DNA of 56,589 nt from a virus: the IMG/VR virus record IMGVR_UViG_3300049893_000970, positions 1 to 56,589 of that record; one strand, 5' to 3'. A program made the translations under genes and the position numbers. Shown here one piece after another: positions 2,409-38,143 of this stretch. Under the pieces are notes generated by a model that searched no databases, was not told the origin of the DNA, and saw only the letters and a list, made by a program, of their open reading frames with translations. Each line of letters begins with the position of its first letter. The first letter of the stretch is position 1.

Positions 2409-2665
2409 CGACGTTCACCTCTCGGAACCTCTCGAATCCGAGAGGTATGACGGTTCACCTCTCGCTACCTCTCGCATTCGCAGAGGTACGCCGAGGTACC
2501 TCGCGCACGACGGAGGTACCTCTTCGAACCTCGGCGAATCGGAGAGGTTCGCGTAGGTACCTCGCACCACCTCTCGACTTCCGCGAGGTACGCCGAGGTA
2601 CCTCCCGAACGTCGGTGGGTACCTCTCGCTACCTCTCGAAAGTCGGGAGGTTCGCCGAGGTATGA
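2405..2665 (+). CDS. Doubtful small ORF through the repeat array
   Basis: An 86-codon frame opens at a GTG overlapping the terS stop and closes at a TGA overlapping the terL ATG, so the coupling geometry is right for a gene. Its product is only the translation of the inverted repeats (repeated EVRRGTSRT and SRYL strings) with no recognisable fold. It may be translated just to carry ribosomes to terL, or it may be non-coding. Confidence 0.25.
   Translation: MTTFTSRNLSNPRGMTVHLSLPLAFAEVRRGTSRTTEVPLRTSANRRGSRRYLAPPLDFREVRRGTSRTSVGTSRYLSKVGRFAEV
2417..2660 (+). repeat. Dense GAGGT/ACCTC inverted-repeat array between terS and terL
   Basis: About twenty copies of GAGGT or its complement ACCTC crowd into ~245 bp. 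The unit is ACCTCTCG, a 4-5 base loop, CGNGAGGT, a short spacer, then the palindrome GAGGTACCTC. Stem-loop heads begin near 2427, 2467, 2528, 2569 and 2631, with spacings alternating about 40 and 61 bp. The first hairpin (ACCTCTCG-AATC-CGAGAGGT) is perfect. Full GAGGTACCTC palindromes lie at about 2493, 2513 and 2594. Position suggests a packaging (pac/cos) or terminase-binding site; a regulator- or replication-binding array is the alternative. Confidence 0.85.
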
Positions 2666-4341
2666 CGAGCCTGGCCGAGGTACGCGCGGAGATCGACGCC
2701 GCCCTGCTGCGCCGCGAGACGGGCGAGCAGCTAGCGGAGGAGGCTGCTCGGCTGGCCGGGAACTTCCGTGAGTTCATCTACGCCGCGTGGCCGTCGCTCG
2801 GGTACCGCCCGCTCGTCCCGTCCTGGCACATCGACGCGCTCGCCGATCACTACCAGGCTGCCATCGACCGCTGGCTGACGCGGCTCATCATCACGATCCC
2901 TCCTGGCTACCTGAAGTCCACGATCTTCAGCGTGCTCGGCCCGGCGTGGGCGTGGACGCACCGGCCGTCGGAGCAGATCGTGAGCGCATCCCACTCCGAC
3001 GACCTCGCCACGCGCGACACGCGCCGCTCGCGCGCGGTGATGCAGACCGCGTGGTATCAGGCGCGGTGGGGGTCGCTGTGGACGTTCTCCGGCGACGAGA
3101 ACCTCAAGACGCGCTACTCGAACGACCAGGGCGGGCATCGCGTCAGGACGCACGTGGGCGGCGGCACGGGCGACCGCGGCTCGATCCTGCAACTCGACGA
3201 CCCGCACAACGCGCAGGAGGCGCACTCGGAGGTGCAGATGCAGGCCGCGCTCGACTGGTGGGGCGAGACGTGGGCGTCGCGCCTCGACGACTCGGTCGGC
3301 GATCTCGGCGTGAAGATGGTCATCGGGCAGCGCATCTCCGAGAAGGATCTGATCGGCCACCTGCTCTCGAACGACGAGGACGCCGGGCGCTGGACGCACC
3401 TGTGCCTGCCTGTGCGCTACGAGCGGAAGCACCCGTTCGTCTACCCGGCGAAGCGCGTCGTCGGTGGACGCACGCTGAAGGGCGATCCGCGCAAGCGCGA
3501 CGGCGAACTGCTCGCGCCCGAGTACATGGACGAGGAGCGGCTCGCCGACCGCACGGCGGAGATAAGCGAGCACACCATCGCCGCGCAGTACCAGCAGCGG
3601 CCCGCCCCGCGCGAGGGGCTGATGCTGCGACGTGCGAACTGGCGCTACTACGACCCGGACCTGAGCTACTACGCGCCGCGCGGGTCGTTCGGACCGGCGC
3701 AGGTGCTGGAGCTTGCCTCGCGCATCGGAGCGTTCCACCTGATCGTCCACTCCTGGGACACGTCGGTGAAGGACCGCGCGCACTCCGACTTCGTGAGCGG
3801 GCAGACGTGGGGCTGCGTCCGTGCGCATCGCTACCTGCTGCGGCTGGTGCATGAGCGCATGGCGCTGAACGCGACCATCGAGGCGATGGTGAACCTCGCG
3901 CAGTGGGCGGCTCCGCTGTGGCCCGGCTGCCCGCACTACACGGTGATCGAGAACTCGGCGAACGGCCCGGACGCAGCAGCGGAGATCCGCTCGCGCGTGC
4001 AGGGCGTGACCCTCAGCGACGCGAAGGGGTCGAAGGAGGTTCGCGCCGACACCGCCTCGCCCGCGCTCGACGGCTTCAACTGCTTCCTGCCGGGGTACGC
4101 GAGGGCGGACGGCTCCAGCTACGACGAGCGCACGCCAGCGGCAGTGCAGCGCTTCGTGGAGGAACTCAGCGTGTTCAACGGCGGGCAGCACGATGACCAG
4201 GTGGACGCCTGGTCGAGCATGGTGATCTGGACGCGCGACCGGACCGGCAGCGTGACGATGAGCGTGCCGAGCGGGCGCGCGGAGTCACCGCGCTTCCGTA
4301 CGTCGGAGCAGTCCACGGCGCTCAGGCCGTCGCTGCGATGA
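2662..4341 (+). CDS. terL: Terminase large subunit
   Basis: This 559-aa packaging motor and nuclease has the expected two parts. The ATPase has a Walker A-like PPGYLKST (residues 80-87) and a Walker B-like ILQLDDP with acidic D179-D180. The C-terminal RNase H-like nuclease shows SWDTSVKD (D366), a conserved NSANGPDAAAEI segment, and HDDQVDAWS (D511-D515). Length is normal for a phage terminase. The ATG overlaps the last GAGGT of the upstream array; GGGAGG about 11 bases upstream is a possible ribosome-binding site. It pumps concatemeric DNA through the portal and cuts it. Confidence 0.93.
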   Translation: MTSLAEVRAEIDAALLRRETGEQLAEEAARLAGNFREFIYAAWPSLGYRPLVPSWHIDALADHYQAAIDRWLTRLIITIPPGYLKSTIFSVLGPAWAWTHRPSEQIVSASHSDDLATRDTRRSRAVMQTAWYQARWGSLWTFSGDENLKTRYSNDQGGHRVRTHVGGGTGDRGSILQLDDPHNAQEAHSEVQMQAALDWWGETWASRLDDSVGDLGVKMVIGQRISEKDLIGHLLSNDEDAGRWTHLCLPVRYERKHPFVYPAKRVVGGRTLKGDPRKRDGELLAPEYMDEERLADRTAEISEHTIAAQYQQRPAPREGLMLRRANWRYYDPDLSYYAPRGSFGPAQVLELASRIGAFHLIVHSWDTSVKDRAHSDFVSGQTWGCVRAHRYLLRLVHERMALNATIEAMVNLAQWAAPLWPGCPHYTVIENSANGPDAAAEIRSRVQGVTLSDAKGSKEVRADTASPALDGFNCFLPGYARADGSSYDERTPAAVQRFVEELSVFNGGQHDDQVDAWSSMVIWTRDRTGSVTMSVPSGRAESPRFRTSEQSTALRPSLR

Positions 4342-4783: not shown

Positions 4784-5467
4784 GTGATCGCGGTCATCGT
4801 CCCGGCGCTCGGACGCCCGGAGCGCGTGGCACCCCTGCGGGCTTCGCTGGACGCGGCTGCGACGGTCCCGACGACACTGCTCTACGTCATCAGCCCAGAC
4901 GACGACGCGACGAGGGACGCGTGTGACGCCGCTGGCGTGGCGCACGCCACGACTCCGTTCCCGCTCGCAGGCGGCGACTACGCGAGGAAGATCAACCTGG
5001 GCATCGACCTCACCCGCGACGCGTGGATATTCCAGGCGGGCGACGACATCAAGTTCCACCGCGGGTGGGACACGACCGCACTGGCCGTGGCCGAGCGCTC
5101 CGACGCGGCTGGCGTGATCGGGACGAACGACCTCGGAAACCCGCTGGTGAAGTCCGGCCGCCACTCGACGCACTCGCTCATCTCGCGGGAGTACGTGGAG
5201 GTCTGGGGCACCATCGACGAGCCGGGCAAGGCGCTGCACGAGGGCTACTGGCACTGCTGGGTGGACAACGAACTGATCGAGACCGCGAAGTCGCGCGGCG
5301 CGTACTTCGCCGCCCGCCGATCCATCGTCGAGCACATGCACTGGGTCTGGCACAAGGGCGCGAAGGACGCCACGTACCAGCGCGGGCAGGAGCGCTACCA
5401 CGAGGACCACCTGCTGTTCATGCAGCGCAGAGCCTTGTGGCGTGGTGGCAGAGTGGTATCGTCTTGA
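4784..5467 (+). CDS. GT-A-fold glycosyltransferase-like protein
   Basis: This 227-aa protein begins MIAVIVPALGRPERVAPLRA, the first beta-strand and nucleotide-binding loop of GT2-type glycosyltransferases. An acidic metal-site equivalent of the DXD motif follows in FQAGDDIKFH. A C-terminal region rich in His and Trp follows. Such enzymes transfer a sugar from a nucleotide-sugar to an acceptor in the cytoplasm. It starts the sugar-modification cassette between terminase and portal. Donor and acceptor cannot be told. Confidence 0.75.
   Translation: MIAVIVPALGRPERVAPLRASLDAAATVPTTLLYVISPDDDATRDACDAAGVAHATTPFPLAGGDYARKINLGIDLTRDAWIFQAGDDIKFHRGWDTTALAVAERSDAAGVIGTNDLGNPLVKSGRHSTHSLISREYVEVWGTIDEPGKALHEGYWHCWVDNELIETAKSRGAYFAARRSIVEHMHWVWHKGAKDATYQRGQERYHEDHLLFMQRRALWRGGRVVSS
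5435..5462 (+). promoter_or_regulatory. Putative promoter upstream of the RHH gene
   Basis: TTGTGG (5435-5440) and TATCGT (5457-5462) are separated by exactly 16 bases whose end is GAGTGG, giving an extended -10 (TGG before the hexamer). This matches the geometry of the phage's TTGACT-type promoters. The ATG at 5471 lies 8 bases after the -10, so a transcript from here would be leaderless or nearly so. It lies inside the end of the preceding gene. Confidence 0.45.
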
Positions 5468-5470
5468 CAC

Positions 5471-5707
5471 ATGCCTGGCTTCACGCTCCGGCTTACCGAC
5501 GAGCAGCACGCCGCGCTCACCGCTGACGCGAAGCGGAACAGTCGCTCGCTCCAGGGCGAGGTCATCCATCGGCTGTTCCCTCCAGCAGACACCCCGGAGA
5601 GCGTGGCTGAGAAGCTGCAGGCAGCCCGGTCTGTGCTCGACGCCGCAGAGCGGCACTTCCGCCCGGACCCGAAGCCGCAGAAGGTCGAGAAACCGAGGCG
5701 TCGGTGA
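5471..5707 (+). CDS. Ribbon-helix-helix (Arc/CopG-like) protein
   Basis: The 78-aa product opens with a beta-strand followed by two helices (FTLRLTDEQHAALTADAKRN...LQGEVIHRLF), the RHH DNA-binding pattern, and ends in a basic Pro/Lys tail. RHH proteins bind DNA as dimers and usually repress. A promoter-like element lies directly upstream, so it may control its own transcription or the sugar cassette it sits in. Its target is unknown. Confidence 0.6.
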   Translation: MPGFTLRLTDEQHAALTADAKRNSRSLQGEVIHRLFPPADTPESVAEKLQAARSVLDAAERHFRPDPKPQKVEKPRRR

Positions 5708-5988
5708 GCGCGTCCGAGAAGCCGAAGGTAACGCCCTGGGTCGAGCCGGAGCTTCTGAATGGATGGACGACTCCGGAGGGCTTCCAGCCGCCTCGCTATC
5801 GGCTCGCCTACGACGGAGAGGCACTCGACCTCTCCGGGATCGCCGAGCCAGGAGATGCGGGCCTTCCGATCTTTCGACTTCCTCCGGACCTCTCCAGGTT
5901 CTTCGGGGTCGAGGCCCCGGGGTGGTTCGGCGGAAGCTTCGCCATCGACGAGGAGGGCTATGTCTACGTGAAGGCGCTGCCGTCGTGA
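5704..5988 (+). CDS. Hypothetical protein
   Basis: This 94-aa acidic protein starts at a GTG overlapping the RHH stop. It contains several Pro-Gly turns and aromatic residues (FRLPPDLSRFFGVEAPGWF), suggesting a small beta-rich fold. I recognise no family. It is translationally coupled to the deacetylase that follows. Confidence 0.6.
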   Translation: MSASEKPKVTPWVEPELLNGWTTPEGFQPPRYRLAYDGEALDLSGIAEPGDAGLPIFRLPPDLSRFFGVEAPGWFGGSFAIDEEGYVYVKALPS

Positions 5989-6506
5989 GGACGCTGCTCA
6001 TCGCTCCACACGCCGACGACGAGACGCTGTTCGCCAGCTTCCTCGCGCAGCGCCATGCCGCCCACATCCACGTCGTCTACGACGAGGGGCGCGAGGACGA
6101 ACTGCGGGCGGCGACCGCGTGGCTCGGCTGCACCTGCTCGCAGGGCAACGTCCCGAAGGGGGCGAGCGAGGACGTGGTCGAGGCGGCGCTGATCGGGCTG
6201 CGCGACCCGAGCGGCGCGGACGACTGGGACCTGGTGATCGCTCCGTCTGAGGACGTCGCCGGACACGAGGAGCACAACATCGTGGCGCGGCGTGCCTGGG
6301 AGACGTTCGGCGACCTGGAGATCATTCAGTACCGGACCTATGCCCCGCGAGGCTCGCGCTCGGTCGGCGTGCCCCTGGAGCCGGACCGCCCCTCGTTCAT
6401 CGCGCGCAAGCTCGCCGCGCTCTCCTGCTACCGCTCGCAGATCGAGGACCCGGCGACCCGGCCCTGGTTCTACGATCTGCTCGACCTCAGGGAGTGGATC
6501 GCATGA
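5985..6506 (+). CDS. PIG-L/LmbE family deacetylase
   Basis: The 173-aa protein carries the zinc-binding signature at its N-terminus as PHADDE (residues 8-13), the family's P-H-P/A-D-D-E motif, and a second His-rich segment GHEEHN. Members remove N-acetyl groups from GlcNAc-type sugars on lipids, mycothiol precursors or nucleotide-linked sugars. It lies in an unbroken coupled run with glycosyltransferases and methyltransferases, so its substrate is probably a sugar used or made by this cassette. The GTG start overlaps the preceding stop. It is shorter than many family members. Confidence 0.85.
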   Translation: MRTLLIAPHADDETLFASFLAQRHAAHIHVVYDEGREDELRAATAWLGCTCSQGNVPKGASEDVVEAALIGLRDPSGADDWDLVIAPSEDVAGHEEHNIVARRAWETFGDLEIIQYRTYAPRGSRSVGVPLEPDRPSFIARKLAALSCYRSQIEDPATRPWFYDLLDLREWIA

Positions 6507-6955
6507 AGGTTCTCGCAGCAGCATTCGGCACCGCCGCGCTCGCCGTGAGCGGCTTCCTCGTGGCCGACCGGGCAGGCGTGGTCTCGCTCACCGGGAGCAC
6601 CGCGACGACCGTGTCCGTCCCGGCTCCGCAGAACCTGCGCGTGGTCGAGGCCGGGGAGACGACCGTGAAGGTGAGCTACGGCCCGAGCGTGGTCGGCCCG
6701 CTCCGCATCGCCCCGTTCGACAACGGCAAGGGCGCGAAGATCACGTGGGCGGGATCGACGGACGCGCTCTACCCGCTCGGCATCACCTACATGGCGAGCA
6801 AGAACGGGAAGGACCTGTGGGCGGCGAACAAGGCGCAGACGTACGCGAACGTCGGCTTCACGCTGGCGGTGCGGAAGTTCACGACATGCGTGGTGCCGCA
6901 CTCAACCTCAGGCTTCGGACCCAAGCGGTGCGTGACCTGGACGGCACCGCCGTGA
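6503..6955 (+). CDS. Exported or membrane-anchored protein with FnIII-like domain
   Basis: The ATG at 6503 overlaps the previous stop (ATGA). The N-terminus MKVLAAAFGTAALAVSGFLV is a signal peptide or anchor. Residues ~35-60 (PAPQNLRVVEAGETTVKVSY) match the first strands of a fibronectin type III-like domain. The 150-aa product ends with two Cys that could form a disulphide, consistent with export. Its role among sugar-modifying enzymes is unclear. Confidence 0.6.
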   Translation: MKVLAAAFGTAALAVSGFLVADRAGVVSLTGSTATTVSVPAPQNLRVVEAGETTVKVSYGPSVVGPLRIAPFDNGKGAKITWAGSTDALYPLGITYMASKNGKDLWAANKAQTYANVGFTLAVRKFTTCVVPHSTSGFGPKRCVTWTAPP

Positions 6956-7065
6956 GCCTCGGAGGCGGTCGCTGGTTCCTCTGGATCGGCCGCACGGGCT
7001 TCGGCTTCCGCGTGCGCTGGATCGAGTTCCAGTTCTACTGGTACGGCGTGAAGGGTCGGCGATGA
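6952..7065 (+). CDS. 37-aa aromatic mini-protein
   Basis: A GTG overlapping the preceding stop opens a 37-codon frame that closes at a TGA overlapping the next gene's ATG. The product is strikingly aromatic and basic (RWFLWIGRTGFGFRVRW, then FQFYWYG), resembling a beta-hairpin or membrane-active peptide. Coupling on both sides supports translation. Function is unknown. Confidence 0.55.
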   Translation: MSLGGGRWFLWIGRTGFGFRVRWIEFQFYWYGVKGRR

Positions 7066-7616
7066 CGCTCCACGAGTTGGAGCGCGAGTCGATCCGCGCC
7101 TTCGTCCGCTCGGCAGCAGACGAGGGCTACCTCTCCGGGCGCGTGCTCGACTACGGCTGCGGGAAGCAGCCCTACCGACCCATCGTCGAGGCGGCGGCTG
7201 GCGAGTACATCGGCTTCGACAGTGCCAGCTTCCCCGGCTCCGTCGTGTCCGAGGAGATCGGCCCGGAGGAGGACCGCGTGCTGTACCCGTTCGAGGAGTA
7301 CGACGCGATTCTCTGCACGCAGGTCGTCCAGTACCTCCCGCTCGCCCGCAACTCGGGCTACACGCACCACTGGCCGCTGATCCTGTGGGAGTGGAAGGCC
7401 TCGCTCGCTATCGACGGGCTGCTCGTGATGACATACCCGACGAACTGGCCCGAGGTCGAACCCGAGGACCTCCACCGCTTCACGAAGGCGGGCATGGCGC
7501 GGCTGCTGACCGAAGCAGGCTTCACCATCGTGCGCCATGAGGTGCGCGGATATCACGACACCAAGTTGAGTTACGCCAGCCTGGCGCTGGGCTACGGGGT
7601 GGTGGCCCGGGCATGA
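7062..7616 (+). CDS. SAM-dependent methyltransferase (class I)
   Basis: The SAM-binding motif I appears as RVLDYGCGKQPYRP (from residue ~27), followed by an acidic strand end (YIGFDSA) and a DAILCTQVVQYLP post-motif. The 184-aa length fits a small class I methyltransferase. Motif and context suggest a small-molecule or sugar methyltransferase, but the substrate cannot be determined. Confidence 0.8.
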   Translation: MTLHELERESIRAFVRSAADEGYLSGRVLDYGCGKQPYRPIVEAAAGEYIGFDSASFPGSVVSEEIGPEEDRVLYPFEEYDAILCTQVVQYLPLARNSGYTHHWPLILWEWKASLAIDGLLVMTYPTNWPEVEPEDLHRFTKAGMARLLTEAGFTIVRHEVRGYHDTKLSYASLALGYGVVARA

Positions 7617-8101
7617 CCGTCGTCATCGACGTGGGCTGCGCGCGGCACGGCGGCGACTACTCCATCGAGCGGCTCATCGAGGAATACGACCCGCATGAGT
7701 TGTACGGCTTCGACCCGACCCTCGATGTCTCGACGTGGCCGACACCGATGCCTGACCGCCCAGTGATGTGCCTGCGAACAGTCGCCGCCTGGACCTACGA
7801 CGGCGAGGTCGGCTTCCGCGCGGATGGCCTCAACTCTTGGGTCACAGAACTGCGAGGCGCTCCGAAGGTGCCGTGCGTGGACCTCGCCCGCGTGGTGCGC
7901 GAGGTGGCGATACCCGACCACCTCGACGTGATCCTCAAGCTCGACGCCGAGGGCAGCGAGTACGACCTGCTCCGGCACCTGATGGCGACCGAGACGGACA
8001 GGCTTCTGACGCTCGCCGTGGTCGAGTGGCACGAGCCGGACCGAGGCCGCGCGCTGATCGAGGAGCAGTTCGCCGCGCCGATCAAGGAGTGGCCGTACTG
8101 A
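7613..8101 (+). CDS. FkbM-like methyltransferase
   Basis: The 162-aa protein starts with MTVVIDVGCARHGGDYSIE (motif I) and contains VILKLDAEGSEYDLLRHL, a segment typical of FkbM-family methyltransferases. Family members O-methylate sugars and polyketides. It directly follows another methyltransferase with ATGA overlap and precedes a glycosyltransferase-like gene, which favours sugar O-methylation. Confidence 0.78.
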   Translation: MTVVIDVGCARHGGDYSIERLIEEYDPHELYGFDPTLDVSTWPTPMPDRPVMCLRTVAAWTYDGEVGFRADGLNSWVTELRGAPKVPCVDLARVVREVAIPDHLDVILKLDAEGSEYDLLRHLMATETDRLLTLAVVEWHEPDRGRALIEEQFAAPIKEWPY

Positions 8102-8694
8102 ACGTCGCGGCGATCATCGTCACGCGCGGAGACCAGGACCTCGCCATCCGCGAGCGCATCCTGCCGTCGCTGCCCGAGGAGTGGGAGTGGCACGTGTGGG
8201 ACAACGAGGTCGAGGAGGACCTCGCCGTGTACGGGCGCTACGCCGCCATCCAGTGGACGGACGCCGAGTTGATCTACGTCCAGGACGACGACTGCGTGGT
8301 GAGCGATCCGAGGGCCATCGTGGACGCGTGGCGCGAGTGGCATGGGCGCGGCATCCCGAACGGCCACGTCGTCTGCAACATGCCGCAGGAGTTCCGGCAC
8401 GACTTCTACGAGGACCACGCGCTCGTCGGCTTCGGAGCAGCGTTCCACCGGGACGCGCCGCAGCGGGCGTTCGCTCGCTTCTTCGGCTCCGACACGGGCA
8501 ACCTGATCACGCGCGACCTCCAGCACTACTACCGCTGCTGCGACGTGGTGTTCACCGGCCTCACGCCGCGCGTGCTCGTCGACGTGCCATACGAGAACCT
8601 CCCGCACGCGTTCTATGAGACGCGGATGTGGAAGCAGCCCGAGCACCAGGCCGAGCGCGCGCGGATGCTGGACCTGGTCAGGCAACTCGCGTGA
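8089..8694 (+). CDS. Glycosyltransferase-like protein
   Basis: The likely start is GTG 8089 (MAVLNVAAIIVTRGDQ), overlapping the FkbM gene by 13 bases; upstream sequence in this frame is a shadow of that gene. The N-terminal strand leads to IYVQDDDCVVSD, an acidic motif resembling the GT-A metal site. A His-rich middle (FYEDHALVGFGAAFHRD) may form the acceptor region. Length is 201 aa. Distant from standard GT2 enzymes, so the specific family is uncertain. Confidence 0.65.
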   Translation: MAVLNVAAIIVTRGDQDLAIRERILPSLPEEWEWHVWDNEVEEDLAVYGRYAAIQWTDAELIYVQDDDCVVSDPRAIVDAWREWHGRGIPNGHVVCNMPQEFRHDFYEDHALVGFGAAFHRDAPQRAFARFFGSDTGNLITRDLQHYYRCCDVVFTGLTPRVLVDVPYENLPHAFYETRMWKQPEHQAERARMLDLVRQLA

Positions 8695-8912
8695 CCGCAG
8701 AGATCGACTACGTGGGCGTACGCGAGTTCGTGGCGCTGATCCTCGCGCAGCGGTGGGAGCCGCGCGGCGCGAACGAGTACATCCGCCTGTCGATGATGCC
8801 GGGACTGTTGCCGCCCCTTCCCGCCGGGATCCTGCTCGACAGGACGTACGGGTTCGACCCCGACGGGATGATGGATGTGCGGCTCAAGCGGCTGCGTGGC
8901 TGGCGGCTGTGA
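8691..8912 (+). CDS. Hypothetical protein
   Basis: The GTG at 8691 overlaps the preceding stop and gives a 73-aa protein (MTAEIDYVGVREFVALILAQ). It has one amphipathic helix and a Leu/Pro-rich middle. It lies between two glycosyltransferase genes; function is unknown. Confidence 0.55.
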   Translation: MTAEIDYVGVREFVALILAQRWEPRGANEYIRLSMMPGLLPPLPAGILLDRTYGFDPDGMMDVRLKRLRGWRL

Positions 8913-9664
8913 ACGTCGAGATCATCTTCACCGCCTGGAACCGGCTCGCCTTCACCGAGGCGAGCTTCCGGCTGCTCGGCGAGAACACCGATTGGGAGCG
9001 GGTGGACAGGCTGGTCGTCTACGACGATGGCTCCGAGGACGGCACGCGCGAGTTCCTGGAGGTCGCTGGCGCTGACGTGGGCGTGCCGGGATACGAGATC
9101 CGGGACGGCGGCTGGCGCTCGCTCGGCGCGACGATGAACGACGCCATCGCGCTCACCGAGGCGGACGCGATCATCAAGATCGACAACGACATCGCGCTGC
9201 CTCCGGGCTGGCTGGAACGCCTGCTCGCCGTGGCCGAGCGCCACCCGAAGTACGCCCTGATCGGCATGGAGGCGGGCTGGACCGGGAGCTACGTGGGTCT
9301 GCGCCGACCGCGCGAGTACGCGATCACGAAGGCTCGGCACATCGGCGGCATCGGCCTCATGCGCGTACGCGCCTTCGAGACGCGCCGTCCGCTGCCGCTC
9401 TCGCTCGGCAAGAACGGCCGGGCCGGATTTACGATCTGGCAGCACCGCTACCACGTCCCGGCGGGATGGGTGACACCCGATCTGCCGGTGGTGCAGTTCG
9501 ACCGCATCCCGGTCGAGCCGTGGGCCAGCCTCTCGCATCACTACGTCGAGGCGGGGTGGGCGCGCCCGTGGCCGCCGTACGAGCACGACATGGCTCCGTG
9601 GTGGGACTGGATCCCGAGCGAGGTGCAGCAGCAGGCAGAGCACGCGGTGAAGGCGCTGGCATGA
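8909..9664 (+). CDS. Glycosyltransferase family 2-like protein
   Basis: This 251-aa protein has the core GT2 pattern: an N-terminal strand (VEIIFTAWNR), the nucleotide-binding VVYDDGSEDGT, and the metal-binding AIIKIDNDIALPPGW (DND). The C-terminal third is Trp- and Pro-rich. I chose GTG 8909, which overlaps the preceding stop. It probably acts in the cytoplasm on a phage or host acceptor. Donor sugar unknown. Confidence 0.88.
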   Translation: MNVEIIFTAWNRLAFTEASFRLLGENTDWERVDRLVVYDDGSEDGTREFLEVAGADVGVPGYEIRDGGWRSLGATMNDAIALTEADAIIKIDNDIALPPGWLERLLAVAERHPKYALIGMEAGWTGSYVGLRRPREYAITKARHIGGIGLMRVRAFETRRPLPLSLGKNGRAGFTIWQHRYHVPAGWVTPDLPVVQFDRIPVEPWASLSHHYVEAGWARPWPPYEHDMAPWWDWIPSEVQQQAEHAVKALA

Positions 9665-10398
9665 AGGTCGTGGCCTCGGCCATCGTGCGCAACGAGGCTG
9701 GCCGCTACCTCGACCTCTGGCTCGACCACCTGCTCGCGTTCTGCGACGAGGTCCGGTTGCTCGATGACGGCTCGACCGACGACACCTGGGAGATCGCATC
9801 GCGCGAGGGCGTGGCGATCACGGCGAACGAGGGTCCGGCGTTCTTCGAGTACGAGTCCGAGGCGCGGAACGCACTCCTGCGCTGGACGATGGAGGGCCAG
9901 CCCGACTACGTCCTCGCCATCGACGCCGACGAGTTCATCGGCGACACCGAGGAGCTTCGCAAGGCGGTGCTCGACGGCCACCCGGTCTACTCGCTCACCA
10001 TGCGCGAGGCGTGGAAGGTGGACGGCACCCGACTCGGCCTGCGCATCGACGGACTGTGGGGCGACCGCCGCTGCCCGATCCTCTGGCAGGCACCACGCGC
10101 GTTGCGCGGTAGCCGCTGGCAGATCCCACGCCGGAAGCTTGCGTGCGGGCGCGAGCCGATAGCAGTGCGCGGGCAGCGCGGCGTGCAGACGGGCATCGGC
10201 ATCTACCACTTCGGCTGGACGCGGGAGCGCGAGCGCGTCGCCCGAGCCGAGCGCTATTTCGAGCACGACCGTGGGCGCTTCCACGCCGATAAGCACCTCC
10301 AGTCCATCCTCTGGACGGACGAGCAGGTGAAGCTCCGGTGGGTGCGCTGGCCGACTTCGATCCCGGCGGCGGTCGGTGGACGAGCGACGGATTCCTGA
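9661..10398 (+). CDS. Glycosyltransferase family 2-like protein
   Basis: The 245-aa product shows a second, clear GT2 fold: MKVVASAIVRNEAGRYLDLW at the start, LLDDGSTDDTWE, and the metal motif VLAIDADEF. The ...RNEA...L..WL.H.. opening resembles the GT2 group that modifies surface polysaccharides. It is the last enzyme in the 4.8-10.4 kb cassette. Confidence 0.88.
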   Translation: MKVVASAIVRNEAGRYLDLWLDHLLAFCDEVRLLDDGSTDDTWEIASREGVAITANEGPAFFEYESEARNALLRWTMEGQPDYVLAIDADEFIGDTEELRKAVLDGHPVYSLTMREAWKVDGTRLGLRIDGLWGDRRCPILWQAPRALRGSRWQIPRRKLACGREPIAVRGQRGVQTGIGIYHFGWTRERERVARAERYFEHDRGRFHADKHLQSILWTDEQVKLRWVRWPTSIPAAVGGRATDS

Positions 10399-11843: not shown

Positions 11844-13745
11844 ATGGCCACTCGCGCCGCCCGCAAACCACGCGAGCGCGGCATCACCATGATGGTGCCG
11901 AAGGCGATCACCGCGTCCGCTGCTCGCGCGACGTCGCTGCCGAAGGCGAACTCATCGTCCCGCACGCCGCAGTGGCAGATGGACGCGCTCGCCTACTACG
12001 ACCAGATCGGCGCGGTCCGCTACGCCGCTCAGTTCGCCGCCCGCACGCTTGCCAAGCTCCGCTGGTACCCCGCCGTCCGCGACGAGAACGGCGAGGTCAC
12101 CGAGTCCGACGACGACACGCTCACCAGCCTGTTCGAGCGCGTGCAGGATCCGGGTGGTGGGCGGTCGATGATGTTCGCCACCTTCGGACAACTCGACTTC
12201 CTCTGCGGCGAGTGCTACCTGCTCTGGTCGCAGGCGGATCCCGAGGAGCCGGACTCCGAGGAGACGTGGGAGATCGTCTCCACGCTGGAGATGCGCAAGC
12301 AGGGCAAGAAGGGCGGGCAGCCGCTCTGGCACCGCATCACCGCCCCCGGGCTGACGCCCCAGGAACTCGTGGAGGCGGACGACGAGGACTTCGAACCGGT
12401 GGGCGACAACGTGCTCGTCTACCGCTGGTGGCGTCGGCATCCGGCGTACTCGCAGATGGCCGACTCGCCCATGCGCTCCGTGCTCGCCGAGTGCGAGGAG
12501 ATCGTTCGCTCGACGCACTCGATCAACGCCCGTCTGATCTCGCGCCTCGCCGGGCCGGGCATCCTGGCCATCCCCGCCTCCTGGTCGCTGAAGCCGCTGC
12601 AGCAGGTCGTCGGCGAGGAGAACCCGGAGGAGGATCCGTTCCAGGCGCGGCTGACCACGGCGATGATCACGGCCATCTCGAAGCCGGGCAGCGCGGAGTC
12701 CGTCGCTCCCATCGTGATCCGCGTCCCCGACGAGCAGACAGACCGCGCGCACCTCTACAAGATTTGGGAGCCGAGCGAGGTCATCCGCGAGCTAGAGCTT
12801 CGGGAGAAGGCGCTCCAGCGCTTCGCAGTCGGCGTGGACATGCCGCCCGAGAAGGTGATGGGCCTCTCCACGTCCGGCACGCAGCACTGGAACGCGTGGA
12901 TGGTCGATGAGGACGCGTGGGCGCACATCGACCCGGTGGCGCAGGCGCTCGCCGACAACCTGGCGTCGAGCTACCTACGCCCGGCGGCGAAGGACGAGGG
13001 CTTCGCCGACTGGCAGTCCGTCACGGTCGGCTACGACCCGGCAGCGGTACTCGCCAACCCGGACGGGTTCGCCGACGCACTCAAGATGTACGAGGCGCGG
13101 GCAGTCGGGAAGGCGTACCTGCGGGCAGCCGGGAACGCGCAGGACAAGGACGCCATGACCGACGAGGAACTGGAGGAGTCGCTGTTCGTCGCCACGCACA
13201 TCCAGGTCGACGTCTCGAACGGCGCGATGGGGGAGCCGCAGGCCCGTCCGACGATCACGCCCGTGCCCGCGACCGAGCAGCAGCCGCCGACTCCGAACGG
13301 TCGCCCGCCGACCGGCGAGGACACGCCTCGCGCGGCCCCGGCTCCACCCGATGGGATGAACGCCTCCGCGTACCTCATCCTCGGTGCAGCCACGGCCACC
13401 CTGGAGGAGATCCGCTCGCGCGTCGGCACGCGGTTGCGGAACCACCTGCAAGGCCGTTGCCAGGAGTGCCTCGCCGCCGTGGACGGCGTCCGCTCAGGGC
13501 TGGTGGCAGCCACGCTTGGTCCCGAGCGGGTACTGGAACACGGCCCCGACCTCGTCGGCCTCGTCATCGACGGCGGGCGCAACTTCGTGGAGGCGGCGAC
13601 TCGCATGGGCGTCAGCTACACGCAGGCGCAGGCGCTAGCCGAGGTGCTGGAGATGCACGCGATCTCGACCATCTACGAGCGCACGCCGGACCTCCCGGCT
13701 GGCTTCCTGGGTCGGGTGAAGGCACTCAGCGGAGTGGCTGCATGA
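11844..13745 (+). CDS. Portal protein
   Basis: The 633-aa protein is in the portal position, following the terminase region and preceding a MuF-like protein. It has the typical SPP1/HK97-type composition: an N-terminal region with WQMDALAYYDQIGAVRYAAQF, a clip/stem part with GVDMPPEKVMGLSTSGTQHW, and a long Pro/Thr-rich stretch near residues 470-500. The portal dodecamer forms the DNA entry pore at one capsid vertex and the base for the tail. Its stop overlaps the MuF start by ATGA. Confidence 0.85.
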   Translation: MATRAARKPRERGITMMVPKAITASAARATSLPKANSSSRTPQWQMDALAYYDQIGAVRYAAQFAARTLAKLRWYPAVRDENGEVTESDDDTLTSLFERVQDPGGGRSMMFATFGQLDFLCGECYLLWSQADPEEPDSEETWEIVSTLEMRKQGKKGGQPLWHRITAPGLTPQELVEADDEDFEPVGDNVLVYRWWRRHPAYSQMADSPMRSVLAECEEIVRSTHSINARLISRLAGPGILAIPASWSLKPLQQVVGEENPEEDPFQARLTTAMITAISKPGSAESVAPIVIRVPDEQTDRAHLYKIWEPSEVIRELELREKALQRFAVGVDMPPEKVMGLSTSGTQHWNAWMVDEDAWAHIDPVAQALADNLASSYLRPAAKDEGFADWQSVTVGYDPAAVLANPDGFADALKMYEARAVGKAYLRAAGNAQDKDAMTDEELEESLFVATHIQVDVSNGAMGEPQARPTITPVPATEQQPPTPNGRPPTGEDTPRAAPAPPDGMNASAYLILGAATATLEEIRSRVGTRLRNHLQGRCQECLAAVDGVRSGLVAATLGPERVLEHGPDLVGLVIDGGRNFVEAATRMGVSYTQAQALAEVLEMHAISTIYERTPDLPAGFLGRVKALSGVAA

Positions 13746-16159
13746 CGCCAGCGCAACTGAACGCGATCACGGCGCAGGTCGCAGAGGACCTCGCCGACGC
13801 CCACGAGCCGCTGGCGGCCGCGTACGAGCGCATCCTGCGCGGCGCAGGGCGGAGGATGGCCAGACGACTGCGCGCGCGCGCGGTGGCGCTCACGGCGGCT
13901 CTGGTGCCGCCTGACGAGGACGAGGTCGTCCCTGACCTGCAGACACAGATCGACAGGCAGACGCGGCGCGAGCGCGACGCGCTGATCCGGATGCTGGCGG
14001 CGGCGTACGAGGCGCACGAGATCGCCTGGGACATCCACGGCAACTTCACGGCGGAGCTTCTGGAGAAGGTAGGAGCGCACGCGAGCTTCGCCGTCGACGC
14101 CGAACTGCGTGCCGTCTACCGCGACGTGATCCAGGCGGCAGCAGAGGAGGGACTCAGCATCCCGCACACCGCCCGTGAGATCGTCAGCGCCGTGGACGGG
14201 CTGGCCGGATACCGGGCGACCGCCCTGGCGCGCACGGACATGATCGGGCTGGCGAACGGCGCGAGCCAGACGGCGGCGACCGAGGCCTTCGCCGGACGCG
14301 AGGACGTGACGAAGGTGTGGCTGGCGACCGACGACGAGCGGACACGCGAGACGCACGTCGAGGCGAACGGCCAGGAGGTCTCGCTCAACGAGTTCTTCGA
14401 CGTGGGCGGCTACGAGATGCTCTACCCGGGCGACCCGGACGGGCCGGACGAGGAGGTCATCAACTGCCGCTGCACGGTCATCTACTCGGGCGGCGGCGGT
14501 GCGCAGGAGGAGGAGGCAGCGACTGCAACGGCCTCTGCCGTCCGTCCTGATGCCTACGCTGCCGAGACGGTGCCCTGGCACATCGAGGAGAACCACACCG
14601 GCTGTCCAGACGGGCGGCCGTTCGCTGTCGTCAAGGATGACGACGGCGAGGTCGAAGGCTGCCACGCAACCCGAGCGGAGGCCGCCATCTGGTCGTTCGA
14701 GGCGCTGTACGCACAGGAGGCTGACATGAGCACAACTGCGGCAGAACCCCTGGCGGTCACGATCACCGTCGAGGACGACTCACACCCGAACCTGACGGAG
14801 GCGCGACGGCGCACCCCGTGGGAGGGCATCCTTGCCATCGCCGGATCGCCTACCAGCGATGGCCGCTACCTGATCCCTGGGGAGATCGGCCAGCGCGACC
14901 TGCCGCTGCCGCTCGCTGCCAGCCACGAGGACCAGCACGCCACCGAGACGGTCGGTCGCATCGAGGTCATCGAGCACATCTCGCTGGCGGACTTCGAGAA
15001 GGAGGGCTGGACGCTTCCGGACGACCTGCCCGCTCAGGCGGTCGTGATCTGGGGCGAGGGCACCTTCGACGGGTCGCCCGCAGCAGACGACGCGCTGCGC
15101 GCGCTGGAGAACGGTGTCGGCGTCAGCCTCGACCTGCCGATGGACAGGCAGGCGCTCATCGACGCGACCACCTTCGAGGAGGTGGATCCGCGCACGCTGG
15201 ACGACGAGGTCATGCTCGGGCTGATGTTCGGGATGGTGCCCGAGGGCTACCTGCGCGGGATCGCGGGGAAGATTGGCGGGCTGTCGCTGGCGAGCATCTC
15301 AGCGTTCGAGGAGACGACGATCCGCATCACGGACTCGACGGCGGTCGTCGCGTCCGGTTTCGCTCTGAGAACGCGCGACCTCGGCACGAGCATCGGCGGT
15401 CTGGAGTACGCGGAGGATTCGATCCAGCTACCGCTCGTCGCCAGCGCCGCTCCCCTGGAGCCGCCGCGCGAGTGGTTCTTCATGGACGAGCCGGACGAGC
15501 CGACGCCCATCACGATCACTGCGGACGGCAGGGTCTACGGGCACCTCGCGCTCTGGAACACGTGCCACGCCGGGCGCGCGAACGGGGCGTACTCGTCCTG
15601 CATGTTCGCGCCGCACTCGCCCTCGGGCTACAAGCAGTTTCACCTCGGCGCGATCCTCTGCGACGACGGATCCGAGGTCGCCATCGGCCGCATGACCATC
15701 GGCACCGGGCACGCCCCGCTGCACCTGAACGCGGCGGCTGCTCGTCGCCACTACGACCACTCCGGCACCTGCGTCGCGTTCGTGCGGGCGAAGGACGGGG
15801 TGTTCGGGATCTGGATCTGCGGCACGCTGAAGTCCGACGCCACCGCCGAGGCGATTCGGGACCTGCGGGCCTGCCCGCCCTCGGGCGACTGGCGCGCGGT
15901 GGACGGCACGCTGGAGCTACAGGCGGCGCTCGCCGTCAACGTGCCCGGCTACGCAGTCCCGCGCTCGCAACTCGCGCTCGCTGCGAGCGGCGACGTGCTG
16001 GACATCGCCACGCTGATCCTGAGCGCTCCGGACGAGAAGGACATGCACGAGGCGATGCGCGCAGAACACGCACTGCTCGACGTGGACATGCTCGTCGAGA
16101 TGGGCGCTGCAGGCGGCCCGTTCGTGACGAAGATCGCTCGCTCGCTCGCCGCCAAGTAG
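13742..16159 (+). CDS. MuF-like minor capsid protein fused to capsid maturation protease-like domain
   Basis: The ATG at 13742 overlaps the portal stop; upstream sequence in this frame is a shadow of the portal gene. The 805-aa product has a MuF-type N-terminal domain ending at the family signature NCRC (N241-C244) after a DVGGYEMLYPGDPDGPDEE segment. The remainder (from about residue 330) has the beta-rich character expected of the protease/scaffold part of actinophage MuF-protease fusions, including GHLALWNTCHAG and SPSGYKQFHLGAI. An in-frame ATG at 14726 (M329) is preceded by AGGAGG, so the C-terminal part may also be made separately. Catalytic residues of the protease could not be assigned. 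Confidence 0.75.
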   Translation: MTPAQLNAITAQVAEDLADAHEPLAAAYERILRGAGRRMARRLRARAVALTAALVPPDEDEVVPDLQTQIDRQTRRERDALIRMLAAAYEAHEIAWDIHGNFTAELLEKVGAHASFAVDAELRAVYRDVIQAAAEEGLSIPHTAREIVSAVDGLAGYRATALARTDMIGLANGASQTAATEAFAGREDVTKVWLATDDERTRETHVEANGQEVSLNEFFDVGGYEMLYPGDPDGPDEEVINCRCTVIYSGGGGAQEEEAATATASAVRPDAYAAETVPWHIEENHTGCPDGRPFAVVKDDDGEVEGCHATRAEAAIWSFEALYAQEADMSTTAAEPLAVTITVEDDSHPNLTEARRRTPWEGILAIAGSPTSDGRYLIPGEIGQRDLPLPLAASHEDQHATETVGRIEVIEHISLADFEKEGWTLPDDLPAQAVVIWGEGTFDGSPAADDALRALENGVGVSLDLPMDRQALIDATTFEEVDPRTLDDEVMLGLMFGMVPEGYLRGIAGKIGGLSLASISAFEETTIRITDSTAVVASGFALRTRDLGTSIGGLEYAEDSIQLPLVASAAPLEPPREWFFMDEPDEPTPITITADGRVYGHLALWNTCHAGRANGAYSSCMFAPHSPSGYKQFHLGAILCDDGSEVAIGRMTIGTGHAPLHLNAAAARRHYDHSGTCVAFVRAKDGVFGIWICGTLKSDATAEAIRDLRACPPSGDWRAVDGTLELQAALAVNVPGYAVPRSQLALAASGDVLDIATLILSAPDEKDMHEAMRAEHALLDVDMLVEMGAAGGPFVTKIARSLAAK

Positions 16160-16342: not shown

Positions 16343-16557
16343 TCGGCAAGCCCATCGACCTCCCGCGCTACGACGTGATGATCGACGGCGAGAAGGTCGG
16401 CGAGGTCTACGCCGCCCTCAGCCGCGAGAGCAGGCACTACAGCAGCGGAAGCGTGAAGCTCTGGTACGGACGGATCGGGGGCAGGAGCCTCGGAGCCGGG
16501 TACAACTCGAAGAACGACGCACGCGACGCCTTGGTCGAGAGGGTGGTGGCCGCCTGA
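16339..16557 (+). CDS. Hypothetical protein
   Basis: The 72-aa product starts at GTG 16339, coupled to the leader stop. It reads as a compact alpha/beta protein (RYDVMIDGEKVGEVYAALSR, then VKLWYGRIGG). I recognise no family. It lies between the MuF fusion and another glycosyltransferase-like gene. Confidence 0.6.
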   Translation: MIGKPIDLPRYDVMIDGEKVGEVYAALSRESRHYSSGSVKLWYGRIGGRSLGAGYNSKNDARDALVERVVAA

Positions 16558-17174
16558 GAATCAGCACAGCCATCCAGCACCATCCGACGCGCCTCCTCCC
16601 GGAGGCGCTTCGACGGTACGAGGTCGTGGACGATCCCGATCCCGATGGGCAGCCGAGTGCGATCCGCACGTACGTCGAGTGCCTGCGGCGCACGCCAGCG
16701 GACGCGACGCACCGGATCGTGCTGCAGGACGACGTGGAGCTTGTCGCAGGGTTCGACGAGCGCGCGCAGGCGGCGCTGGCGGAGCACCCGTCCTCGCTGG
16801 TCGCGTTCTTCGTTCCCGGCATGGGCCTCGTTGGCAGGTGGGTTCGGGAGGCGGCGAAGGCGGGTAAGCGGTGGTGCCAACTTCCGAGCAGCATGAACTG
16901 GACGCCCGTGGTGGCTCTTTCGTGGCCTCGGGAGTTGGCCCAGGAGTTCGTCCCGTTCGCCGAGGCGCACGTCGCGGCGCGAGCACGTCGGCGCGTCGGG
17001 ACGGTCGGTGACGATCCGGTGGTGGGCGCGTTCGTGCGCGCGCACAAGCTGCCCGTGTGGGCGACCGTGCCCTGCCTCGTCCAGCACCCGGACTTGGTGC
17101 CGAGCCTGGTCAAGCGGCGCTCATACGGCGGCACGAACCCGGCCCGACGCGCAGCCGTGTTCGTGGACGACTAG
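16554..17174 (+). CDS. Glycosyltransferase-like protein, probable CTG start
   Basis: The frame has no ATG, GTG or TTG before GTG 16626, but the region from CTG 16554 reads as a convincing N-terminal strand (RISTAIQHHPTRLLPEALRR), and that CTG overlaps the previous stop just as ATGA/GTGA do elsewhere. Starting there gives 206 aa. The motif HRIVLQDDVELVAGF supplies a GT-A-like DXD site, and conserved Trp and Pro segments follow. Starting at 16626 would delete the first strand of the fold. It adds a sugar transferase within the head operon region. Confidence 0.7.
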   Translation: MRISTAIQHHPTRLLPEALRRYEVVDDPDPDGQPSAIRTYVECLRRTPADATHRIVLQDDVELVAGFDERAQAALAEHPSSLVAFFVPGMGLVGRWVREAAKAGKRWCQLPSSMNWTPVVALSWPRELAQEFVPFAEAHVAARARRRVGTVGDDPVVGAFVRAHKLPVWATVPCLVQHPDLVPSLVKRRSYGGTNPARRAAVFVDD

Positions 17175-17395: not shown

Positions 17396-19138
17396 ATGGA
17401 TCCGCTGTTCCCCGTGGTCGATCTGGAGCAGATCACCTCGATGTCCGACGAGGACATCCAGGCGCTCATCGACCAATACAACGCTGCCTTCGGTGCCATC
17501 GCCAGCGGCGCGGCATTCGAGGGCATGGAGGACCCGCCCGATCTGAACGAGCGCAAGGCGCTGGCGCAGGCCGGAGCCGAGACGCTGAAGGCGCTCAAGA
17601 CCGCGCTCGCCGAGCGCATCGAGGAGCGCGAGCGGTTCGCCGCCGAGATGGCGGAGATCGCCGCGGACGCAGGAGTGGTCGTCACGGCCGAGGCCGAGGG
17701 CGACGACGAGGGCGACGAGGAGGAGGGCGAAGGCGACGCAGAAGAGGCGGCCGCCGAGTCCGTCGAGGACGAGTCCGCAGAAGCCTCGCCCGAGGCTGCG
17801 GCGGAACTGACCGTAGAGGAGCCGGAGGCAGTCGTGGTGTCGAGCGCGCCCGCTCTCTTCCGGCACAAGCCCCCGGCCGTGCCTCGGAGGCACCAGCCGA
17901 TCGTGATCGAGGACGGCGACCGCAAGGCCGCGCTCGTCGCGTCGGCTGGCATTGAGGGACTCACGCCCGGCGAGCACCTCGACAGGGACGCCCTCTCGCA
18001 CGCGCTCATGACCTCGCTGCGCGGATTCGTCTCGACGCCTCCTGGCTTCGTCCAGAAGGTCGTCGTGGCCTCCGCACGGTGGGAGTACCCCGAGGAGCGC
18101 ACGCTCTACGGCGACTCCATCCAGGCCGACGACGCGAAGATCCGCGCGGTGCGCGGTCCCGACGCGCTCGTCGCGGCGGGCGGCTGGTGCGCACCGAGCA
18201 CCATTCGCTACGACATCGAGGCGATGGGTTCGACGGCCCGTCCCGTCAGGGACGCGTTCGTCGGCTTCAACGCCACGCGCGGTGGCCTCCGCTACTACCC
18301 GGACATCTCCATCGCCACGACCGACGTGACGGACGGCATCACGCACCTCACCGAGGCCGAGGATGAGGGCGGCACCATGACGAAGGACTGCGTCGTCGTG
18401 GACTGCCCGGTGGACTCCGAGGTCCGGGCCGACATCATCGCGGCGTGCCTCCAGGCAGGGAACCTGGCGGGCATCGCGTTCCCGGAACTGATCTCCGCGT
18501 ACCAGGACCTCCTGGGCGTGCAGGCAGCCCGGACGCGTGACTCGCTCCTGCTGGACGCGGTCGCCGCCGACACGCAGACCACGACCGTCACCGAGACGGC
18601 GCAGGAGTACGGGGCATACGACGCCCTCGTCTACAACCTGCTCCGGCTCGCGGCGGGCTACCGCTCGCGGCACCGGCTCGACGCCTCCGCCGTCCTGCGG
18701 TCGCTCGCACCCGCCTGGCTCGCAGACCTGATCGTGGCCGACCTGGTCGCGCGTCAGTTCCCGCTGCCGGGCGGAGTCACGCGAGCAGGCGTGGCGGCAC
18801 TCATCCAGTCGCAGACGCAGGTCGCTGTGGACTGGTACCTCGACAGCCGCACGGGTGGCGGCCAGATCATCGGCGCGCAGGGAGCCGGGGACATCGTGGA
18901 CTTCCCCGACATCGCCGAGGTCCTGCTCTGGCCGGAGGGCGGCATCCTGTTCATCGACCAGGGCGAACTGAACATCGGTCTCGTCCGCGACTCGCTGCTC
19001 AACGAGACGAACGACGTGAAGTTCTTCTCCGAGACGTTCGAGAACGCGGCCGTGATCGCAGCCGAGGCCTTCCTCGGCCAGTTCACGCTCTGCCCGACGG
19101 GTGAGGTCGCTCCCACGGCGACGGCCCGGACCTGCTGA
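17396..19138 (+). CDS. Major capsid protein with N-terminal scaffold-like extension
   Basis: The ATG at 17396 follows a good GGGAGG site. The first ~195 residues are helical and very acidic (a Glu/Asp-rich run near residues 100-120) and resemble a delta/scaffold domain. The rest has HK97-type character: RPVRDAFVGFNATRGG, several beta segments, and VEVLLWPEGGILFIDQG-like strands near the end. The 580-aa length matches fused scaffold plus coat domain. It probably forms the procapsid shell, with the N-terminal part removed by the upstream protease during maturation. Confidence 0.82.
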   Translation: MDPLFPVVDLEQITSMSDEDIQALIDQYNAAFGAIASGAAFEGMEDPPDLNERKALAQAGAETLKALKTALAERIEERERFAAEMAEIAADAGVVVTAEAEGDDEGDEEEGEGDAEEAAAESVEDESAEASPEAAAELTVEEPEAVVVSSAPALFRHKPPAVPRRHQPIVIEDGDRKAALVASAGIEGLTPGEHLDRDALSHALMTSLRGFVSTPPGFVQKVVVASARWEYPEERTLYGDSIQADDAKIRAVRGPDALVAAGGWCAPSTIRYDIEAMGSTARPVRDAFVGFNATRGGLRYYPDISIATTDVTDGITHLTEAEDEGGTMTKDCVVVDCPVDSEVRADIIAACLQAGNLAGIAFPELISAYQDLLGVQAARTRDSLLLDAVAADTQTTTVTETAQEYGAYDALVYNLLRLAAGYRSRHRLDASAVLRSLAPAWLADLIVADLVARQFPLPGGVTRAGVAALIQSQTQVAVDWYLDSRTGGGQIIGAQGAGDIVDFPDIAEVLLWPEGGILFIDQGELNIGLVRDSLLNETNDVKFFSETFENAAVIAAEAFLGQFTLCPTGEVAPTATARTC

Positions 19139-20058: not shown

Positions 20059-20709
20059 ATGAACTGTGGAGTGCCGTACGGCCTCTGCGCGATCCGCGTG
20101 ACGCGCCTCGACAGCGACGGGAACGCGGACGACGACAACGTGGTCAGCCGTCACCCTGTGACGGTCGGCTTCAACCCGAACATCGACCAGGGCACCGACG
20201 TCATCGCACGCGATGGCTGCGGCTGCTCGGTGGCCTCGATCAAGGGCCGCCCGGTCTTCAACTGGGTCGAGTTCACGTTCGGCAAGGACGTGCTCGAACC
20301 GGCGATGGAGGCCATGATGACCGGCGACACGCCGATCACCTGGGGCGGTCTGACCATCGGCGTCAACGGTGCTTCGGCGCTCGACTGCGACGAGGAGCCG
20401 GTCTACGTCGGCTTCGAGTTCTGGGCGAAGCACTACGTCGGGAACTCTCCCGACGCCACCTACCGGTTCGTCCACTGGGTCTTCCCGAGGACGCGCTGGT
20501 GGTGGGGTGACAACACCCAGGAGGAAGGCGTCGGCCGGACCGTGCTCAACGGCGTCTCCGCGTCCAACCCGCTCTGGGGCGGTGGACCCTACGGCGACGG
20601 TCCTCCGGACGGGCAGGACGTGGTCGAGTGGGCACGCTGGTTCACCGACGATCCGCTGCCGACCGCGACCGCTTGCGGCACGCTCGACACGGGAGCCATC
20701 GGGAGCTAG
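20059..20709 (+). CDS. Possible major tail protein or head-tail structural protein
   Basis: The 216-aa protein has a ribosome site (GAGGAGG) and ends just before a terminator hairpin. Its N-terminal half (TVGFNPNIDQGTDVIARDG...FNWVEFTFGKDVLEPAMEAM) resembles tail-tube-type beta sandwiches. A Trp-rich stretch follows (HWVFPRTRWWWG). A terminator after it suggests it is made in large amounts with the capsid. It is separated from the other tail genes by a fibre gene, which makes the tail-tube call tentative. Confidence 0.5.
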   Translation: MNCGVPYGLCAIRVTRLDSDGNADDDNVVSRHPVTVGFNPNIDQGTDVIARDGCGCSVASIKGRPVFNWVEFTFGKDVLEPAMEAMMTGDTPITWGGLTIGVNGASALDCDEEPVYVGFEFWAKHYVGNSPDATYRFVHWVFPRTRWWWGDNTQEEGVGRTVLNGVSASNPLWGGGPYGDGPPDGQDVVEWARWFTDDPLPTATACGTLDTGAIGS

Positions 20710-37571: not shown

Positions 37572-38143
37572 GCGCCTTCGACGAGGCGGCGTGGTGGGGT
37601 GACTGCGGCAACACGTTCCACGAGGAGCAGAAGCAACTCGTCGCTGCCGAGCGTATGGGCCTGGTCGCGGAGTACGGTGGCGCTCATCCGCCGACCTTCG
37701 ATCTGGCCGGACGCTCGGTGCTCGACATCGGTGGCGGGCCAGTCTCGCTCCTGCTCAAGTGCAGGAACCGAGGGCGCTGCGTCGTGGTCGACCCCGCCGA
37801 CTTCCCGCCTTGGGTGTTCGCCCGCTACGAGCACTGCGGCATCGGCTTCTGGCACGGCCCGGCGGAGGCGCTCGACGGCCAGCCGCAGTTCGACGAGGCG
37901 TGGCTCTACAACGTCCTCCAGCACGTCGAGGATCCCGGACAGGTCATCGGCCAGGCCAGGGCATACGTGGGCGTCCTGCGCGTGTTCGAGTGGCTTCACG
38001 TCGATCCCTACCCAGGCCACCCTCACCGCCTGGAGCGCGAGCAGATGGACGAGTGGCTGGAGGGCTACGGCTACGTCGCCAAGCTCGACGACCGTGGCTG
38101 CGTCGGCACCGCCTACTACGGTGTCTTCCGAGGATCCTCCTAG
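37568..38143 (+). CDS. SAM-dependent methyltransferase
   Basis: The 191-aa protein has motif I in GRSVLDIGGGPVSLLLK, an acidic post-motif in CVVVDPADFP, and a EAWLYNVLQHVEDP segment. It overlaps the GT4 gene by ATGA. The pairing mirrors the glycosyltransferase plus methyltransferase grouping at 5-10 kb and supports sugar methylation as a possible role. Confidence 0.82.
   Translation: MSAFDEAAWWGDCGNTFHEEQKQLVAAERMGLVAEYGGAHPPTFDLAGRSVLDIGGGPVSLLLKCRNRGRCVVVDPADFPPWVFARYEHCGIGFWHGPAEALDGQPQFDEAWLYNVLQHVEDPGQVIGQARAYVGVLRVFEWLHVDPYPGHPHRLEREQMDEWLEGYGYVAKLDDRGCVGTAYYGVFRGSS

Follow-up and report, generated by a model that had tools for sequence, protein, structure and literature searches.

A GT4 glycosyltransferase family, rather than a terminase–portal sugar cassette, is linked to Gly-X-Thr collagen-like genes

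The virus record IMGVR_UViG_3300049893_000970 of IMG/VR (hereafter the window; 56,589 bp in its entirety) is a complete, circular genome with a 127-bp direct end repeat and a GC content of 68%. An earlier note on this DNA proposed that the phage decorates its own Gly-X-Thr (GXT) collagen-like fibres, and that this is done by a cassette of sugar-modifying genes located between terminase and portal (positions 4784–10398). We find that it is the family of g43, a glycosyltransferase (GT) gene elsewhere in the genome, that is associated with GXT collagen genes; the cassette is not. On the basis of this linkage, g43 is the leading candidate for an enzyme that coats the collagen-like fibres with sugar. 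Thus the general idea of fibre decoration gains independent support for g43 and its overlapping neighbour g44, a methyltransferase gene, and gains none for the cassette at 4784–10398.

Several features on which the proposal was built are present as described. The genome encodes two Thr-dense GXT collagen-like fibres, g29 and g40, with Thr in 56–57% of Y positions, and Pfam and PHROG searches identify the GT4 enzyme and the methyltransferase reported at 36441–38143 as g43 and g44. Within the alignment of the g43 family, the EPFG of the GT4 motif EPFG...E and the E after it are invariant. Relatives of the phage, all of them uncultivated, were found through scans of IMG/VR with TerL (terminase), g6, g14 and g17, and 20 related contigs that are full or nearly full were compared with the window (21 in total). 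Association was assessed among the 19 contigs, window included, that have the major tail gene, each scored for cassette, g43 and GXT collagen. All eight contigs with g43 carry GXT collagen, in comparison to 2 of the 11 without it (Fisher p = 0.0007). Two of the negatives are weak, as contigs G022 and G025 stop 2.1 and 3.4 kb past the major tail gene; when these are set aside, collagen is found in 2/9 g43-negative contigs (p ∼0.002, calculated by hand). Contig G015 was counted as collagen-negative despite 27 triplets with 41% Thr. Both contigs that have collagen and lack g43 hold another GT behind the fibre gene: an unrelated GT2 (9.9e-8) at a distance of 39 bp in G018, and a GT2–FkbM fusion (FkbM 6.2e-12) at 2.2 kb in G008, where the GT2 domain and the FkbM methyltransferase form one chain close to the GXT collagen gene (L182, G008:C1 47399–48904). 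In a further relative, G011, our reading of the sequence between a giant GXT fibre and g43/g44 (L213, G011:C1 44643–51369) identifies extra sugar-type genes, namely a GT-like protein together with FkbM-like and other methyltransferases; Pfam matched neither of the two that were tested.

The link extends well beyond this phage group. A g43 profile derived from nine sequences recovered at least 572 viral relatives, of which 80 were kept, and 57 bacterial loci. A Thr-rich Gly-X-Y (GXY) gene is present in 59/80 viral and 28/56 bacterial g43-family loci, and in 24/80 and 24/56, respectively, no more than 300 bp separates it from the g43 homologue, where random placement in the same loci would yield 4.2 and 4.1. 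Control loci contain any collagen gene in 1/76 cases for g6, 0/28 for TerL and 8/38 for g17. Because these control genes are head-region genes, the bacterial loci and the comparison within the phage group provide the stronger tests. Bare two-gene units of collagen and GT4 occur among ordinary chromosomal genes in Bacillota and Chitinophaga. The family was rare in an independent draw of genomes (3/391; 2/299), and all three new hits from this draw (L484, L486 and L487) adjoin a GXT collagen gene. Cyanophages supply further examples: in the marine phage ACG-2014f, homologues of g44 and g43 (44% and 34% identity) lie side by side, with a collagen gene (Pfam Collagen 3.4e-41) just ahead of them and a 2-oxoglutarate (2OG)-Fe(II) oxygenase gene after them, and in S-CAM7 a g43-type GT is located behind two GXT genes. 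A tree of 134 members has the collagen label scattered throughout the family, the main groups without it being clades of Nocardia and Mycobacterium. Nocardia and one relative carry g43-family genes at 11 loci (L315, L316, L323, L326–L328, L330, L332, L338, L347 and L361), sometimes with more than one copy per genome and with no collagen gene within ∼10 kb. Judging from this setting, the Nocardia-type members may act on a different substrate.

We consider it somewhat better than an even bet that the phage encodes two separate sugar modules, with g43/g44 acting on the GXT fibres and the cassette acting on a common virion protein. In the first module, g43 would attach a sugar to g29 and g40, probably at the Thr hydroxyls of Y positions, and g44 would methylate the sugar so placed, with both steps occurring in the host cytoplasm ahead of fibre assembly. 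In the second, g6, g9, g12, g13, g14, g16, g17 and perhaps g25 would assemble a short O-glycan of another kind, with a sugar that is de-N-acetylated and O-methylated, on a virion protein that the phage group has in common, most likely the capsid and/or tail tube. A broader reading, to which we give even chances, is that g43 represents a GT4 family dedicated to GXT collagen, which travels together with collagen-like genes among bacteria from several phyla and phages whose hosts differ greatly. Prokaryotes and phages would then have their own equivalent of the collagen glycosylation seen in animals and mimivirus; partners of the g44 or FkbM type would add a methyl cap, and in some phages unrelated GT2 enzymes would take the place of the family.

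A number of points count against these readings. Gene content, folds, motifs and conservation were observed; the glycosylation of any protein, the residues and sugars used, the order of steps and the substrate of the second module are inferred, and co-location of g43 with collagen falls short of proving a substrate. Only three supported phylogenetically independent contrasts are available within the phage group, which all agree and are too few for significance. In the window itself, 2.9 kb separates g43 from g40, and the distance to g29 is 13 kb. The Nocardia and Mycobacterium members have no collagen gene inside the locus retrieved, and a g44-like gene is found within 3 kb of g43 in just 18/137 loci. 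The link also runs one way: g43 is missing from all 61 GXT loci that were picked out with a DNA motif, with the reservation that these loci span little sequence. When Pfam families of genes near and far from the motif-drawn collagens were compared, few GTs were near (GT25/PLOD 2 and GT2 2 of 144); thus phage GXT collagens do not as a rule have a GT next to them. At GATGATG loci (some of L364–L443), the 2.5 kb around phage GXT collagens hold, among others, two genes matching the PLOD GT domain, which is of the procollagen glycosyltransferase type, two matching GT25 and two for 2OG-Fe(II) oxygenases; the list of families for distant genes at these loci has none of these.

The enzymes of the cassette are those that the earlier note named, at the positions it gave. 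Its four GT-A glycosyltransferases are confirmed, g16 and g17 by sequence and g6 and g14 by predicted structure, as are a PIG-L deacetylase and two S-adenosylmethionine (SAM) methyltransferases, one of them FkbM-like, by Pfam and intact zinc motifs. The description of one coupled run holds in that the genes between terminase and portal mostly overlap on the plus strand; the run also contains small genes without sugar function (g7, g8, g10, g11 and g15). Among the latter, g10 (6503–6955) has a hydrophobic N-terminus, reads as exported, and has no Pfam match or detected relative in the compared cassettes. The AlphaFold model of g6 (pLDDT 95.6) has SpsA as its top PDB match (1.2e-8; GT-A fold), and g6 is conserved across 77 IMG/VR loci. 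For g14, Pfam and PHROG searches gave no family match; its model (pLDDT 94.5) matches EXTL2 and other GT-A enzymes in the PDB, and QDDD is invariant in a 24-sequence alignment of its family. The zinc motifs of g9, PHADDE and GHEEH, are intact, with their His and Asp residues invariant in relatives down to ∼40% identity. A profile of g17 has GmaR (6.5e-10) and then SunS-type enzymes as its nearest PDB chains, with ∼90–110 residues aligned. GmaR, a flagellin glycosyltransferase, and SunS-type enzymes glycosylate proteins or peptides, and of the cassette enzymes g17 is the likeliest to attach the first sugar to a protein. It is plausible that the glycan includes deacetylated and O-methylated sugars.

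That the cassette itself builds a glycan on the GXT fibres, either alone or by extending what g43 starts, we consider very unlikely. Enzymes of these types would suit a methylated O-glycan, and cassette and GXT fibres do occur together in this phage and in G002, G006, G008, G009, G011 and G014. However, GXT fibres are found in 7/13 contigs with the cassette and 3/6 without it (Fisher p = 1.0), and each occurs without the other. In G005, G010, G012, G013 and G016 the cassette is retained, and the tail region, which is readable, encodes no GXT protein; G005 covers TerL through the tail genes and has the whole cassette and zero collagen repeat. Conversely, GXT fibres are present in G001, G018 and G023, where the cassette is incomplete; in G001 and G023, which encode large GXT proteins, g6 is the sole cassette gene. 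In the window, moreover, the cassette resides in the head gene region, at least 10 kb from the fibre genes. Thus the cassette is independent of collagen, and fibre decoration by it is not supported under the criterion set by the earlier note itself, because relatives without Thr-rich collagen fibres keep it. The order TerL-g6-(g9)-g12-g13-g14-g16-g17-(g20)-portal is complete or nearly so in many independent contigs; because the same ordered set recurs at ∼40–70% protein identity, the cassette is, by its gene order, an old syntenic module beyond chance. Recovery of g6 in 21/21 compared contigs is due partly to selection.

The cassette might instead modify the host surface, a role commonly proposed for phage GTs. 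We regard this as distinctly unlikely, given that no membrane-bound polyprenyl-phosphate GT or flippase was recognised, that the cassette enzymes read as soluble, and that many phages have the cassette at one fixed place, between terminase and portal. Glycosylation of the phage DNA as protection against restriction, which the earlier note offered as an alternative, is highly improbable. Some phage GTs do have this function, and a Pfam scan finds two DNA methylase genes in the window, but the cassette genes lie in the late head operon, and we rejected the idea because no pyrimidine hydroxymethylase, thymidylate-synthase-like gene or comparable base-modifying gene was found by Pfam among nearly all genes of the window. 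PIG-L and FkbM enzymes are not known to be parts of DNA-glycosylation systems. Glycosylation of capsid or tail tube would fit the cassette better than decoration of the fibres. As for g43, it could neighbour collagen genes only because tail-fibre regions and surface loci gather GTs, and could act elsewhere, for example on the host envelope in superinfection exclusion. Phage fibre regions often hold GTs, which others have read as modifying lipopolysaccharide (LPS) (PMC7029224), and the presence of collagen rarely predicts g43. Nonetheless, this explanation is unlikely: pairs separated by at most ∼100 bp occur in chromosomes of Bacillota and Chitinophaga where no phage genes are visible, a single family retains the same partner across a deep tree, and g43 tracks collagen inside one phage group.

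The earlier note also reported a further glycosyltransferase at 16554, and this gene (g25) is borne out by a PHROG match and has a homologue in 21/21 compared contigs. Its start is uncertain, being either CTG 16554, which overlaps the stop of g24, or GTG 16626, the first standard start. From CTG 16554 to 16626 the frame reads LRISTAIQHHPTRLLPEAL; because homologues begin with similar sequence (MNISVCIQHHPARAHLLEPL in G001), the CTG placed as the start in that note may be the true one. A 'PTATA' motif shared by the C-termini of the window's capsid and tail-tube proteins was considered as a glycosylation site and rejected, as these conserved ends occur regardless of the cassette. The C-termini of g26 and g28 form conserved short tails (CPxG...TAxTC-like and ...PPxAxCG...PGS-like) across the group, in contigs with and without the cassette, and these are possible modification or disulphide sites. 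Positions of all of these genes, and of the structural genes around them, are compiled in the table below. Among named phages, TerL and portal have matches at ∼25–31% identity, and a nucleotide search for named relatives of this phage found none. The host is likely actinobacterial, because the portal matches come mostly from actinophages.

Features of the window discussed in the text, with supporting matches (E-values)
Feature	Position	Strand	Assignment	Evidence
TerL	2662–4341		Terminase
g6	4784–5467	+	GT-A glycosyltransferase next to terminase	PHROG glycosyltransferase 9e-6; Pfam just 0.018
g9	5985–6506	+	PIG-L-type zinc N-deacetylase	Pfam PIG-L 4.4e-6, just under Pfam's cut-off
g12	7062–7616	+	SAM methyltransferase	Pfam Methyltransf_23 6.4e-7; syntenic in relatives
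g13	7613–8101	+	FkbM-like SAM methyltransferase	Pfam FkbM 2.8e-4, just under cut-off; syntenic in relatives
g14	8098–8694	+	Small GT-A glycosyltransferase, undescribed family	Predicted structure
g16	8909–9664	+	GT2 glycosyltransferase	Pfam Glycos_transf_2 3.8e-12
g17	9661–10398	+	GT2 glycosyltransferase	Pfam Glyco_tranf_2_4 2.2e-11
Portal	11844–13745		Portal
Mu-F	13742–16159		Mu-F
g25	16554–17174	+	Small glycosyltransferase between Mu-F and capsid genes	PHROG 854 glucosyltransferase 5.6e-11
g26	17396–19138		Major capsid protein
g28	20059–20709		Major tail protein
g29	20788–23223	+	Large GXT collagen-like fibre, candidate substrate	Pfam Collagen 1.5e-54; 156 triplets, 57% Thr in Y
Tape measure	27018–30131		Tape measure
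g40	31844–33502	+	Second GXT collagen-like fibre, candidate substrate	Pfam Collagen 1.2e-11; 41 triplets, 56% Thr in Y
g43	36441–37571	+	GT4 glycosyltransferase	Pfam Glycos_transf_1 1.6e-17; PHROG 3408 4.7e-52
g44	37568–38143	+	SAM methyltransferase overlapping g43 end	PHROG 3603 1.2e-44; Pfam Methyltransf_23 4.4e-6
M23 peptidase	39160–40629		M23 peptidase

Phage tails commonly carry collagen-like GXT fibres. The g43 family, labelled so far only in vague terms such as 'group 1 glycosyltransferase' or 'auxiliary metabolic gene', serves as a marker of GXT collagen genes across phages, Bacillota, Bacteroidota and Patescibacteria. This provides a testable pair of enzyme and substrate, and a two-gene system of collagen and GT4 is small enough for testing in E. 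coli. The other module, the cassette, is widespread and contains small GTs of families that have scarcely been described (g14 and g6). As a matter of caution, GTs near phage fibre genes should not be assigned by default to roles in host LPS or DNA. The titles, abstracts and selected passages that we searched contain no paper tying a phage GT to a phage collagen; in such material, reports name both kinds of phage gene but draw no connection, and take the GTs to act on LPS, cell wall or DNA (PMC7029224, PMC10202952).

The closest known parallel to the cassette is found in cluster O mycobacteriophages (Freeman et al. 2023, as cited in PMC11600133 and PMC12619734). In these phages, capsid and tail tube are modified by three GTs encoded in tandem, downstream of an O-methyltransferase gene (PMC11600133), and the glycans are located at C-termini (PMC12619734). 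As described there, the two systems share tandem GTs with an O-methyltransferase, soluble enzymes, and a siphovirus with an actinophage-like portal. The cassette differs in adding a PIG-L deacetylase and FkbM, and its capsid or tail-tube target is a proposed one. A tblastn search with g14, g17 and g25 against 50,697 phage records gave no mycobacteriophage match. Because no homology of these three proteins was detected, the cassette is better described as working like the cluster O system than as a member of it.

For g43, the profile has as its nearest solved structure the glucosylsucrose synthase TeGSS (7fg9; 4.5e-35), which uses UDP-glucose as donor (PMC9909042). Unlike the role proposed for g43, TeGSS acts on sucrose and not on protein. 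Glycosylated GXT collagen is known from BclA of the Bacillus exosporium (PMC8968730). As in BclA, Gly-X-Thr repeats occur in the protein proposed to bear the glycan, and Bacillota members of the g43 family adjoin such genes, whereas in the present case the collagen-like protein is a phage fibre. Virus-encoded collagen glycosylation also has a precedent in mimivirus L230, a collagen lysyl hydroxylase/glucosyltransferase (PMC9614988). In L230, a lysyl hydroxylase is joined to a GLT25D1-like GT in a fusion that acts on Lys, whereas g43 is a GT4 whose proposed target is Thr, and no 2OG oxygenase was found by Pfam among nearly all genes of the window. Nonetheless, if the fibres are indeed the substrate of g43, the phage would resemble mimivirus in using a virus-encoded GT to modify its own collagen-like protein.

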